Origin: Tepidanaerobacter syntrophicus
GTDB lineage: Bacteria > Bacillota > Thermosediminibacteria > Thermosediminibacterales > Tepidanaerobacteraceae
DNA length: 64,000 bases
NCBI RefSeq assembly: GCF_001485475.2
Contig: NZ_DF977002.1
Span: 156,426 to 220,425 of the forward strand
Direction: 5' to 3'
The translations under genes and the position numbers were made by a program. A model generated the notes under the pieces. The model did not search any database and had not been told where the DNA came from. It saw only the letters and a program-made list of their open reading frames with translations. The first letter of the stretch is position 1, and every line of letters starts with the position of its first letter. Below, piece by piece: positions 37,872-63,992 of the stretch.

Positions 37872-38146
37872 AACACAAGGGGAGGCCAGAAGAACACAAC
37901 CGGAGGAACACAAGGGGTCAGTCCCTCTGTGCTAATTGCTGGTAAGAAGAACACAAGGGGTCAGTCCCTCTGTGCTGTTTAGTCCCTCTGTGCTGTTTTC
38001 TAGGTTTTTTGCAGGAAAAATTCATTCGGGCGTAGTATAGCGCAAGGGGTCAGTCCCTCTGTGCTAATTGCTGGTAAGAAAGAACACAAGGGGTCAGTCC
38101 CTCTGTGCTAATTGTTGGGAACACAAGGGGTCAGTCCCTCTGTGCT
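37872..38146. repeat. REP array: five 27-bp imperfect palindromes plus fragments
   Basis: Full units lie at 37907-37933, 37950-37976, 38039-38065, 38083-38109 and 38120-38146; four are identical (arms AACACAAGGGG and GTCCCTCTGTGCT around TCA), the third begins AGCGC. Half units are at 37872-37882 and 37981-37994. Spacers are themselves repeated (AATTGCTGGTAAGAAG), giving a 43-44 bp period in places. Each unit can fold ACACA.GGG against CCC..TGTG. Similar units are at 50264-50290 beside a RAYT gene and at 63941-63967. Confidence 0.85.
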
Positions 38147-47375: not shown

Positions 47376-48449
47376 CTATTTCAAATCTATAACTATATCA
47401 TCTAAGAATACCTCTTTTGGCAATGTCCCTTTCTGCTTTAAATAATCTAATACTTCTTTTTCATCACTTTTAAGAATTGAGGGGCCAATTATCCGATGTC
47501 CGTCTTCGCCTAATACTTCAAATTCTACCTTAGGAGTTATAATGAGCTTAGTAGCGTCTTTATCTATTTTCCCATAGGTAGACGAGAATTTCATAAGATT
47601 TTTGGTCCCGCTGCCGCCATTGCCTTCACCGGAATACACATTGCCTAAATCATCTTTGACTTCTACTAGAGATGTATATGCGCCAAAGTATCCTTTTATC
47701 GCCTCTTCGGGAACCTGCTGACTGTAATGTATGATAGTAGACATAGGGGTGAAGGTTATTTTATCAATCTTTACAGTTGCTCCATCCTTTGTTACGCCTT
47801 TATTAGCCACCAAGATGTCTGTATCCGTCTTTTTAATGTTAAAATTAAAAGCCCATTTGCCCTTTATGTCTAAATCTTTGTGATTAGTTATATTATCGAA
47901 TTTTAATCTGACATCAAGTTCATCGAAAACCTTATCCATAGTCATTCTCATAAAACCGATATAGGTATTTTCATTTACCTTATAGATGCCGCTGCTTCCT
48001 GTCATCCCTCCAAAATACCCCTTGATATCAAGGTCATCCCTAATATATATGTCATCACCTAAATCCTTTTCACTTTCTAATGTGTATGTCACCATCACTG
48101 TTGTCCCGTCATATATGGCATCGTTTAATGTAATTTTGACATCTTTATCTTCGCATGCCATATCCAACGACTTGGAAAAGTCCTTGTATTCTGCATAGTT
48201 TCCATGGGCGTATTCGCTTAAATAGGCAAATACATTTCCGATGATGGGAATTTCCTTGGCTTGGGTGGGAAAGGCCATGCCAAAAGCCGTTGTCCCAATT
48301 ATTAAAGCTGCTGCCGCTGCTGCTATATGTTTTTTTAGTCCTCTTTTCTTTGTTTTCGCTCTCTTGCTGTATCCTTCCTCGATAGCAAATCTGATAGTAT
48401 CATCAAGTCTGGATGATACCTTGATTTTATCTAAATCCTTATAATTCAC
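47376..48449 (-). CDS. DUF4179-domain membrane protein, putative anti-sigma factor
   Basis: A 357-residue single-pass protein. A short cytoplasmic N-terminus (VSSRLDDTIRFAIEEGYSKR) precedes one hydrophobic helix (about 41-62) and a large external region; the DUF4179 stretch with SEYAHGNYAEYKDFSKSLD, then beta-rich segments, is found in proteins encoded next to SigV-like ECF sigma factors. The N-terminus is therefore likely to hold the sigma factor. It overlaps the sigma gene by four bases. The external signal is unknown; binding of a cell-surface stress agent is plausible. Confidence 0.8.
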   Translation of the reverse strand: MNYKDLDKIKVSSRLDDTIRFAIEEGYSKRAKTKKRGLKKHIAAAAAALIIGTTAFGMAFPTQAKEIPIIGNVFAYLSEYAHGNYAEYKDFSKSLDMACEDKDVKITLNDAIYDGTTVMVTYTLESEKDLGDDIYIRDDLDIKGYFGGMTGSSGIYKVNENTYIGFMRMTMDKVFDELDVRLKFDNITNHKDLDIKGKWAFNFNIKKTDTDILVANKGVTKDGATVKIDKITFTPMSTIIHYSQQVPEEAIKGYFGAYTSLVEVKDDLGNVYSGEGNGGSGTKNLMKFSSTYGKIDKDATKLIITPKVEFEVLGEDGHRIIGPSILKSDEKEVLDYLKQKGTLPKEVFLDDIVIDLK

Positions 48450-48967
48450 TTACATTCCCCCTCCATATACGTCCTTAGCTTCTTTATTGTTCTTGAAATC
48501 TTACTGCTTACCGTCCCCAGAGGTGAATGAACTGTTTCTGCAATATCCCTTATACTCATATCCTCCATATACCGCATTGCAATCAATTCCTTTTCATCGT
48601 CCTTTAAATTATCAAGCGCCTTGTGTAAATCTATATTATCTTCTATGCTCGCATCATTATGGGCCGGTATTTTTTCAAATTCCGATGTATCATGAGATAT
48701 GGAATTTTGGGCCTTTCTCAGATTGTCCTTGCAGGTATTTATGGTTATGCGGGTAATCCATGTATTAAAATACCTGGGTTCTCTTAAGCTATCAATAGAC
48801 TGTATGGCTTTCACGATAGAATCATGGACACAGTCTAAGGCATCATCTTCATTTTTCATATACATGAAAGCCGTTCTGTATAGCTGGTCTTTTATGGGTT
48901 CCAGTAGTTTATAGAAACTTTCTGCATCTTTATTTTTGGCTCGTTTAAAACTTATTTCATCGATCAT
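48446..48967 (-). CDS. ECF-type RNA polymerase sigma factor
   Basis: A 173-residue sigma-70 family protein with region 2 (LEPIKDQLYRTAFMYMKNEDDALDCVHDSIVKAIQSIDSL) and region 4 (DEKELIAMRYMEDMSIRDIAETVHSPLGTVSSKISRTIKKL). Region 3 is missing, as in extracytoplasmic-function sigma factors. It is co-transcribed with the DUF4179 anti-sigma gene. Start ATG 48967 follows GGGAG. A GGTAAAAA/TTTTTACC-type inverted repeat lies in its leader (48986-49004). Confidence 0.92.
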   Translation of the reverse strand: MIDEISFKRAKNKDAESFYKLLEPIKDQLYRTAFMYMKNEDDALDCVHDSIVKAIQSIDSLREPRYFNTWITRITINTCKDNLRKAQNSISHDTSEFEKIPAHNDASIEDNIDLHKALDNLKDDEKELIAMRYMEDMSIRDIAETVHSPLGTVSSKISRTIKKLRTYMEGECK

Positions 48968-49439: not shown

Positions 49440-50207
49440 TTAGCGACTATCTACGCCCCGTATCACTCCAAAACTGATACCGGTCAGCCGTTCAATTTGC
49501 CTGATGGATAAGCCTTTTTCCCTACACTGTTTTATGACTTTATTGCGCTTACCCTTTTCAAAAAGCGCTATCTCGCTTGGGCTCTGGACATCGCATATAC
49601 TTTTAATAAAATCGGTAGCTTGCATATCATTTAATCTGACACCTTGATCATAGTCCAGGCATCGGTCCTGATTTTCCGCTAAGTTAAATTCCTCAAATAA
49701 TTTTATTGCCTTTACCCTATCGCTAGAAAAGAGGCTGAGCCCAAATTCAGTATCACAAAGTCTTGGCTCTTCAATATACTCATGATAGCTGCTCCATGGG
49801 TAATCAGCTATATTTTCCACTATTCCGGCATTGTATGGGTTTTGATGAATGTAGCGGAGCACTGTTAGAAAATAACTGTCCGTCTCCACCGCTTCACTTT
49901 TATATCGATCCTGGAACAAATGACCCCGGCGGCCATATTTCCGGTTATACCAATATACATAACTAGCTCCGATTCTTCTAAACACTATCCCCAAGTCTTC
50001 TTCTGCTTCCTTTATCAATAAATGAATATGATTACTCATAAGACAGTAGGCATAAATTATGTAGCCGCTTTTTTCCTTGGTGTGCTTCAGTGTCCGCAGA
50101 AACTTTTGATAATCTTCGTCATCCTCAAATATGATTTGGTGGTTAACGCCTCTTAACATCACGTGATAAATCCCGGTACTGCTTTTATCTCTCGCTGCTC
50201 TTGGCAT
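49440..50207 (-). CDS. REP-associated tyrosine transposase (RAYT, IS200-like Y1 HUH)
   Basis: A 255-residue Y1 transposase-domain protein. The N-terminal core starts GIYHVMLRGVNHQIIFED, the HUH motif is in MSNHIHLLI, and GRRGHLFQDRYKSEAVETDSYFLTVLRYIHQNPYNAG is the block seen in RAYT/IS200-like proteins. The C-terminal 60 residues add an HTH (KGLSIRQIERLTGISFGVIRGV). RAYTs are domesticated and single-copy, and are thought to move REP palindromes; here a REP-like unit lies 57 bases upstream of its start and similar ones lie at two other loci. Codon use and borders give no sign of a full IS. Confidence 0.92.
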   Translation of the reverse strand: MPRAARDKSSTGIYHVMLRGVNHQIIFEDDEDYQKFLRTLKHTKEKSGYIIYAYCLMSNHIHLLIKEAEEDLGIVFRRIGASYVYWYNRKYGRRGHLFQDRYKSEAVETDSYFLTVLRYIHQNPYNAGIVENIADYPWSSYHEYIEEPRLCDTEFGLSLFSSDRVKAIKLFEEFNLAENQDRCLDYDQGVRLNDMQATDFIKSICDVQSPSEIALFEKGKRNKVIKQCREKGLSIRQIERLTGISFGVIRGVDSR

Positions 50208-50263
50208 ATTCTCGCCCCTGATGTAAATTGTAAACTAAAACAGCATAAAAGGCAACACAAAAT

Positions 50264-50290
50264 AGCACAAAAGAACCGTCCCTCTGTGTA
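50264..50290. repeat. REP unit next to the RAYT gene
   Basis: A 27-bp unit with arms AGCACAAAAG and GTCCCTCTGTGTA around AACC, the same length and layout as the units at 37907-38146. It sits between the RAYT gene and the gatB stop. A fragment AACACAAAAT (50254-50263) precedes it. Confidence 0.75.
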
Positions 50291-63933: not shown

Positions 63934-63992
63934 GGCAAAGAACACAAGGGGTCAGTCCCCTTGTGTTCTTTAGTCCCCTTGTGTTCTTTGCC
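63934..63992. repeat. REP unit with long perfect hairpin
   Basis: GGCAAAGAACACAAGGGG (63934-63951) is complementary to both a near copy (CCCCTTGTGTTCTTT, 63957-63971, loop TCAGT) and a full one (CCCCTTGTGTTCTTTGCC, 63975-63992). The core 63941-63967 has the same 27-bp length and centre as the other REP units but is a better palindrome. It follows the dehydrogenase gene and could serve as its terminator. Confidence 0.75.

Follow-up and report, generated by a model that had tools for sequence, protein, structure and literature searches.

The stretch of DNA analysed here (the window) comprises 64,000 nucleotides of the Tepidanaerobacter syntrophicus genome, positions 156426-220425 of contig C8, and holds one Y1 transposase gene, which lies on the reverse strand at 49440-50207 and encodes a protein of 255 residues. 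A previous inspection of the letters alone (the sequence-only reading) had reported a single gene resembling those of REP-associated tyrosine transposases (RAYTs), with a 27-bp unit beside it. Both are in place: the gene has a Y1_Tnp match and the unit is present at 50264-50290. The features discussed below are as follows.

49440-50207, minus strand: HTH-tailed RAYT (TIRYT) gene, 255 aa; Pfam Y1_Tnp, E 2.2e-12
49446-49562, minus strand: C-terminal helix-turn-helix (HTH), residues 216-254; model helices 218-230, 235-242 and 246-254; weak matches to HTH families in Pfam
49455-49475, minus strand: recognition helix, residues 245-251, with F246 and R250 as putative arm-reading residues (protein-DNA couplings and pair test)
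49851-49853, minus strand: likely catalytic tyrosine Y119 of the Y---NP motif; Y119, N123 and P124 invariant in 85 relatives
49908-49910, minus strand: D100, putative core-reading residue (disjoint-pair test), aligned to P96 of E. coli TnpAREP
50022-50030, minus strand: HUH motif, residues H60-I61-H62; H60 and H62 invariant in 85 relatives
50227-50232, minus strand: putative -10 box TACAAT of the RAYT promoter, from the same pair as TTGCCT
50250-50255, minus strand: putative -35 box TTGCCT of the RAYT promoter, from the top-ranking -35/-10 pair on the downstream side of the unit, with spacing 17
50264-50290, minus strand: type A unit upstream of the RAYT gene, its GGGAC strand directed at the gene; same side and orientation in relatives
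37907-37933, minus strand: type B unit 1 of a direct array (by sequence)
37950-37976, minus strand: type B unit 2 of the array (by sequence)
37981-37994, minus strand: half unit, outer arm only (by sequence)
38039-38065, minus strand: type B unit 3 of the array (by sequence)
38083-38109, minus strand: type B unit 4 of the array (by sequence)
38120-38146, minus strand: type B unit 5 of the array (by sequence)
63941-63967, minus strand: type B unit, an almost perfect palindrome (by sequence)

The NCBIfam model that best matches the protein is REP_Tyr_transpos (NF047646), at 76.1 bits and just below its cut-off of 80; this model for REP-associated tyrosine transposases matches all 85 aligned relatives at E <= 0.01. 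The predicted structure (pLDDT 93.5) has as its top PDB match 4er8, TnpAREP with a REP hairpin, with Z 19.2 over 161 residues compared with 11.0 for the runner-up, and Foldseek returns the same structure at E 4e-9. From the Pfam match and the alignment of 85 relatives, the Y1 domain carries both HUH and Y---NP, the latter being the class 2 signature (PMC6006769). The C-terminal extension is predicted to be a three-helix HTH. Compared with the PDB by itself, the HTH model gave no strong match (best Z 5.3, tied with unrelated folds); Pfam families that match the C-terminal parts of relatives include HTH_23, Sigma70_r4_2 and others. With one intact copy of the gene in the 2.43-Mb assembly and REP_Tyr_transpos as the best NCBIfam model, identification of the gene as an IS200/IS605 insertion sequence was rejected.

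Repeat units in the window and the genome

The sequence-only reading had placed equivalent units at three places in the window. Their coordinates are exact (50264-50290, five units within 37907-38146, and 63941-63967), but the units are not of one sequence: the gene-adjacent unit is of type A and the six others are of type B. The two types have the outer arm in common, with the first 13 and last 7 bases identical, and their cores are GGGACGGTTC in type A and GGGACTGACCCC in type B, giving the consensus sequences AGCACAGAGGGAC-GGTTCTTTTGTGTT and AGCACAGAGGGAC-TGACCCCTTGTGTT, respectively. The five array units stand in direct orientation within 240 bp, accompanied by the lone half unit.

That the unit recurs genome-wide, and that its copies are intergenic, had been named as points to check, and both were borne out in counts made from pattern searches and fetched stretches. 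The 13-mer GTCCCTCTGTGYT, with at most one mismatch, occurs 51 times in the 2.43-Mb genome and its reversed pattern 0 times, a difference that chance does not explain; 25-mer searches gave 33 hits for type A, 26 for type B and 0 for controls. Besides the gene-adjacent unit, 56 units were mapped, and 41 of them lie outside open reading frames of at least 100 aa, as against 119 of 959 random positions. Most of the 15 units inside such frames fall in two clusters, and the frames concerned may be spurious.

Twenty of the type A units form ten inward pairs (REPINs), each 61-62 bp long with its members 34-35 bp apart. Mean identity among the ten pairs is 85% and that of their flanks 28%, the pattern that spread by copying would leave; the pairs look like the transposon minus its gene. 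No inward pairs of this kind were found for type B among the 56 mapped units, and no RAYT in this genome has an adjacent type B unit, the type B core being tied to none there. The window gene has an upstream unit only, none having been found downstream. A search of the REPIN flanks for inverted flanks or fixed target sites gave nothing convincing, and no empty site was found for the units.

Some type A units are broken within the core and joined to a common sequence, GAGACCACTGAAAAACTAGCC or GAGACCACTGAAAAAGTCCCC. Examples in the window's own genome (G000) are at C5:464147 (L008), C7 at ~64.5 kb (L013) and C5 at ~1.7 kb (L032), with further cases at L091 and L137; the junction occurs once in the same-genus genome G011 too. 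The joined sequence may be a terminus of some other element, one that uses the units as insertion sites. In the flanks of L007 and L009, short tandem or dispersed AGCACAGAGACCAGCTAAC-like repeats, which carry the unit's outer arm bases, adjoin type A doublets.

Units beside RAYT genes and across genomes

Loci of relatives were chosen by protein similarity alone, and a unit was counted where an inward GGG[AT]C, with 6 or more of its 8 arm positions paired, lay no more than 200 bp from the gene. Such units occur upstream of 58 of 90 genes and downstream of 61 of 89, compared with 46 of 1060 background stretches 1-2.7 kb away. The core usually lies about 58-75 nt before the start or 15-50 nt after the stop, and relatives with units on both sides of the gene are found across Bacillota. 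For 55 of 80 named relatives, the inverted repeat scored above all 100 shuffles. The core hardly varies: 69 of 121 cores are GGGACGGTT, with GGGACAGGT, GGGACGTTT and GGGACGGGG as the main variants. The arms vary widely by lineage and covary as inverted repeats, with 75.6% of arm cells paired (54.7 +- 2.1% when shuffled) and an arm covariation of 0.599 (0.248 +- 0.028 when shuffled; 0.258 for the best slide). Dispersed units match the RAYT-flanking units of their own genome, a fit equalled in 24 of 5040 permutations; G007 and G002 are exceptions, with dispersed units that fail to match those beside the RAYT identified.

Palindromic, intergenic sequences of this sort might be intrinsic terminators or other RNA-level elements, the pairing of the arms then reflecting RNA hairpins. 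The unit contains no T-run, however, and genome-specific arms that track a protein, the inward pairs and the dependence on RAYT presence make such an explanation very improbable.

Repeats and gene also occur together at the level of whole genomes. Among 398 genomes of the phylum, at least five cores are present in 69 of 114 with a RAYT and in 17 of 284 scored as RAYT-negative (odds ratio 24, p 1e-30), where presence was called at a cut-off of E 1e-40 and the negatives are a loose class, with only six candidates per genome scored. The one RAYT-negative genome that was searched again (G001, 27 cores) contains only broken RAYT pieces. Within the order (22 genomes), RAYTs of the HTH-tailed type occur in one family, with 1-52 copies of the core GGGGACGGTTCT per genome, and are absent from the other, with 0-1; a class-level sample of 17 genomes was too small for use. 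The expectation that relatives lacking the RAYT also lack the repeats proved right for family f2, which has no RAYT gene and zero near-exact units; two genomes of the same genus, G011 (no gene found) and G012 (gene fragments only), keep 1-3 near-exact units. Findings that would have spoken against the original claim, namely units abundant in RAYT-less relatives or missing elsewhere in this genome, did not appear in strong form, G001 being a holder of RAYT fragments.

Those broken fragments lie at C1:3195851-3201582 and 329013 in G001 and at C80:94326-94689 in G012. There are GGGACGGTTC units with AT-rich arms near the G012 fragments and one unit beside the G001 fragment at 329013; these sites resemble RAYT loci in decay.

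The number of copies, their intergenic placement, the conserved position beside the gene in relatives and the co-occurrence across genomes support the conclusion that gene and repeats belong together, and with it the earlier proposal of a RAYT with cognate repeats. We consider it likely that the gene encodes a single-copy HTH-tailed HUH/Y1 transposase of the TIRYT (TnpAREP subclass 2.1) type, with the type A units as its cognate terminal sequences; these units are spread through the genome singly and as 61-62-bp inward pairs. One alternative is that some other element, an IS200/IS605 transposase or a DDE enzyme, spread the repeats, the RAYT being a bystander located where repeats are abundant. 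The genome does possess a second Y1 gene, a 129-aa open frame at C9:88034-88339 (L001), but this gene is IS200-like and no GGGAC unit was seen in the sequence around it, on which ground it was set aside as the driver of the repeats. The paired unit position beside RAYTs is, moreover, conserved in dozens of genera, and neither the co-occurrence across genomes nor the residue-base covariation described below fits a bystander, a role we regard as highly unlikely.

Covariation of protein residues with arm and core bases

Across 36 gene-unit pairs, arm sequence was most strongly associated with protein columns 246 and 83, followed by 81 and 250. Residues 246 and 250 sit on the last helix of the HTH (246-254) in the predicted structure. 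The columns were then ranked in a discovery set of 74 sequences and in an independent replication set of 93, taken from a phylum search and less than 90% identical to the discovery sequences. After adjustment for overall identity, column 246 ranked 5 of 223 in discovery and 12 of 227 in replication, and column 250 ranked 2 of 223 and 13 of 227. Most protein columns failed to replicate between the two sets (rank correlation 0.07), and we therefore place weight only on the named residues. No claim is made for the stem-associated columns 235, 105 and 107, seen in the replication set only, or for columns 138 and 83, seen in the discovery set only.

When the sets were joined, 13 of the 50 strongest protein-DNA couplings fell within residues 245-251, where 1.4 are expected; the maximum reached 5 in 200 permutations and 8 in 840 tree simulations. 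The overall protein-arm correlation of 0.28 is a little above that of the simulations, which give up to 0.24 on average. At the level of single residues, R250 goes with C at arm position -6 (19/22), E250 with G (14/22) and F250 with A (14/18), and F246 goes with C at -6 (16/18) and A at -5 (16/18). For these two arm positions, a comparison of 83 phylogenetically disjoint pairs placed residue 250 first (p 1.1e-4) and 246 third. The same 83 pairs, examined for core positions +5 to +8, ranked residue 100 first of 252 columns (p 1.1e-4), a result that comes from the joint data, without replication in a split set. D100 is associated with G at core +5 and E100 with AG. The aligned counterpart of residue 100 in E. 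coli TnpAREP is P96, which lies between W94/Q95 and E100/H101 in the strip that contacts GTAG (W94, Q95, E100, H101 and R104).

Cross-prediction, in which only neighbours below 50% identity served as guides, separated the two sets of residues. Arm bases were predicted best from residues 246 and 250 (0.43; whole protein 0.35; random 0.31) and the core from residues 80, 96 and 100 (0.85; whole protein 0.75; random 0.66). With the tasks exchanged, the recognition helix predicted the core no better than random, and residues 80, 96 and 100 had a weak edge on the arms (0.37 compared with 0.31 for random). Taken as a whole, the data from some 170 relatives suggest that the repeat has two distinct portions, each read by a different portion of the protein. 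The possibility raised in the sequence-only reading, that the HTH directs REP recognition, is backed by the residue-to-base covariation, covariation being distinct from binding.

Possible reading of the units and described systems

As single-stranded DNA, the 27-nt type A unit hardly folds (-1.1 kcal/mol, z -0.3), type B reaches -5.0 kcal/mol and the doublet folds strongly (-36.4 kcal/mol). Folding with DNA parameters was a poor detector of units in relatives, and fixed-register pairing performed better. In a set of 161 distinct units chosen without regard to pairing, the mismatched arm positions on the GGGAC strand comprise 44 G.T and 63 A.C, and on neither strand is there an excess of G.T over A.C. 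Given the lack of a G.T strand bias and the weak folding of type A, these units offer no clear support for the one-strand hairpin of classical REPs; a duplex dyad site explains the arm symmetry as well as a hairpin does.

A sigma-70-like promoter with no more than 3 of 12 mismatches accompanies 53 of 104 upstream units, compared with 4 of 125 downstream controls and 13 of 104 shuffled flanks. Its spacing is mostly 17, and the -35 box, which most often begins 12 nt past the GGGAC start, lies mostly in or beside the 3' arm of the unit. The window unit is located just upstream of a weaker promoter, TTGCCT-17-TACAAT, without overlap. Because the upstream unit of relatives often carries the -35 box of the gene, RAYT bound there would repress its own gene, which suggests autoregulation through the upstream unit.

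The units might be operators, that is, double-stranded dyad sites at which a regulatory RAYT places two HTHs on two duplex arms, with spread being secondary or caused by something else. Arm symmetry without strand bias, the weak single-strand folding of type A, the overlap of upstream units with the promoter -35 and the tracking of arm bases by HTH residues would all follow. On the other hand, HUH and the tyrosine are invariant in 85 relatives, which places the nuclease under selection; units stand on both sides of the gene; and near-identical REPIN pairs in unrelated flanks indicate copying. On balance, we hold the operator explanation to be rather unlikely.

If type A units are instead the cognate terminal sequences of the RAYT, as we prefer, the Y1 domain would read the core GGGAC(G/A).. 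by means of the loop around residue 100, much as GTAG is read by E. coli TnpAREP. The lineage-specific arms would be read by the C-terminal HTH through residues 246 and 250, and units would spread through cleavage by Y119. More tentatively, we propose a modular two-part code: the nuclease domain may read a near-universal core and an exchangeable HTH the lineage arms, giving each lineage a private repeat family. Sites that carry the promoter of the enzyme could render the system self-limiting, and dispersed copies could put operators or -35 boxes beside host genes.

Systems of this kind are known. TIRYTs, with GGGGWSAS terminal inverted repeats (TIRs), were described in 2013 (Di Nocera et al. 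2013, PMC3733652). In those TIRtrons, a RAYT-like gene is flanked by TIRs, some of which belong to repeat families as dimers or clusters; here, relatives have such repeats around the gene and the window gene has the upstream copy only. The type B sequence GGGGTCAG fits the motif, and the type A core GGGACGG is close to it but does not conform. The TIRtron study called most TIRs unrelated to REPs and saw no clear correlation between gene and repeat family, whereas the present system shows a constant core with lineage-specific arms, co-occurrence across genomes and a residue-level code. In its Y1 core, C-terminal HTH extension and Y---NP, the protein resembles TnpAREP subclass 2.1, which the 2018 survey of Quentin et al. 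(PMC6006769) takes to be RAYT group 1 in the grouping of Bertels et al. (2017), as cited there, and probably also TIRYT. HTH-tailed RAYTs form a large named family and not the isolated clostridial case envisaged in the sequence-only reading. In the survey, the surroundings of subclass 2.1 genes yielded no REP-like sequences, and contact between HTH and target was left open; the questions it left, the cognate repeats and the role of the HTH tail, are both addressed here.

In GTAG systems, RAYTs and REPs are known to co-evolve (Nunvar et al. 2010, PMC2817692). The classical RAYT/TnpAREP with GTAG REPs (PMC2817692; PDB 4er8) shares with the present system the HUH/Y1 fold, inverted palindromes that flank the gene in relatives, dispersed intergenic copies and doublets, and co-evolution of repeat and enzyme. 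Here, however, it is a central GGGAC core that stays invariant, the enzyme carries an additional HTH and hairpins of type A are weak; on inspection, none of the listed units begins its stem with a GT(A/G)G head. The inward pairs are, like the REPINs of Bertels and Rainey (2011, PMC3116915), short mobile-looking doublets of inverted units, but they measure 61-62 bp, have arms and core of the TIRYT kind and are present in the window's genome in tens of copies, not hundreds. A literature search for the core sequence, with subscription papers outside its scope, gave no relevant match. Systems of the kind have precedents; what appears to be new are the private arms around a constant core, the co-occurrence across genomes and the residue code. 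Together they provide named residues and named bases that can be tested, and a natural collection of enzyme-repeat pairs, well over a hundred in number, that differ in their arms. They could account for the way a domesticated transposase keeps its repeat family separate from others, and they offer orthogonal protein-DNA pairs based on a single-strand nuclease.

Two further observations concern sigma factors. A sigma-factor-like gene is located at 48446-48967 of the window, ~470 bp past the RAYT stop codon, and the HTHs of several RAYT relatives score against sigma region 4 models.
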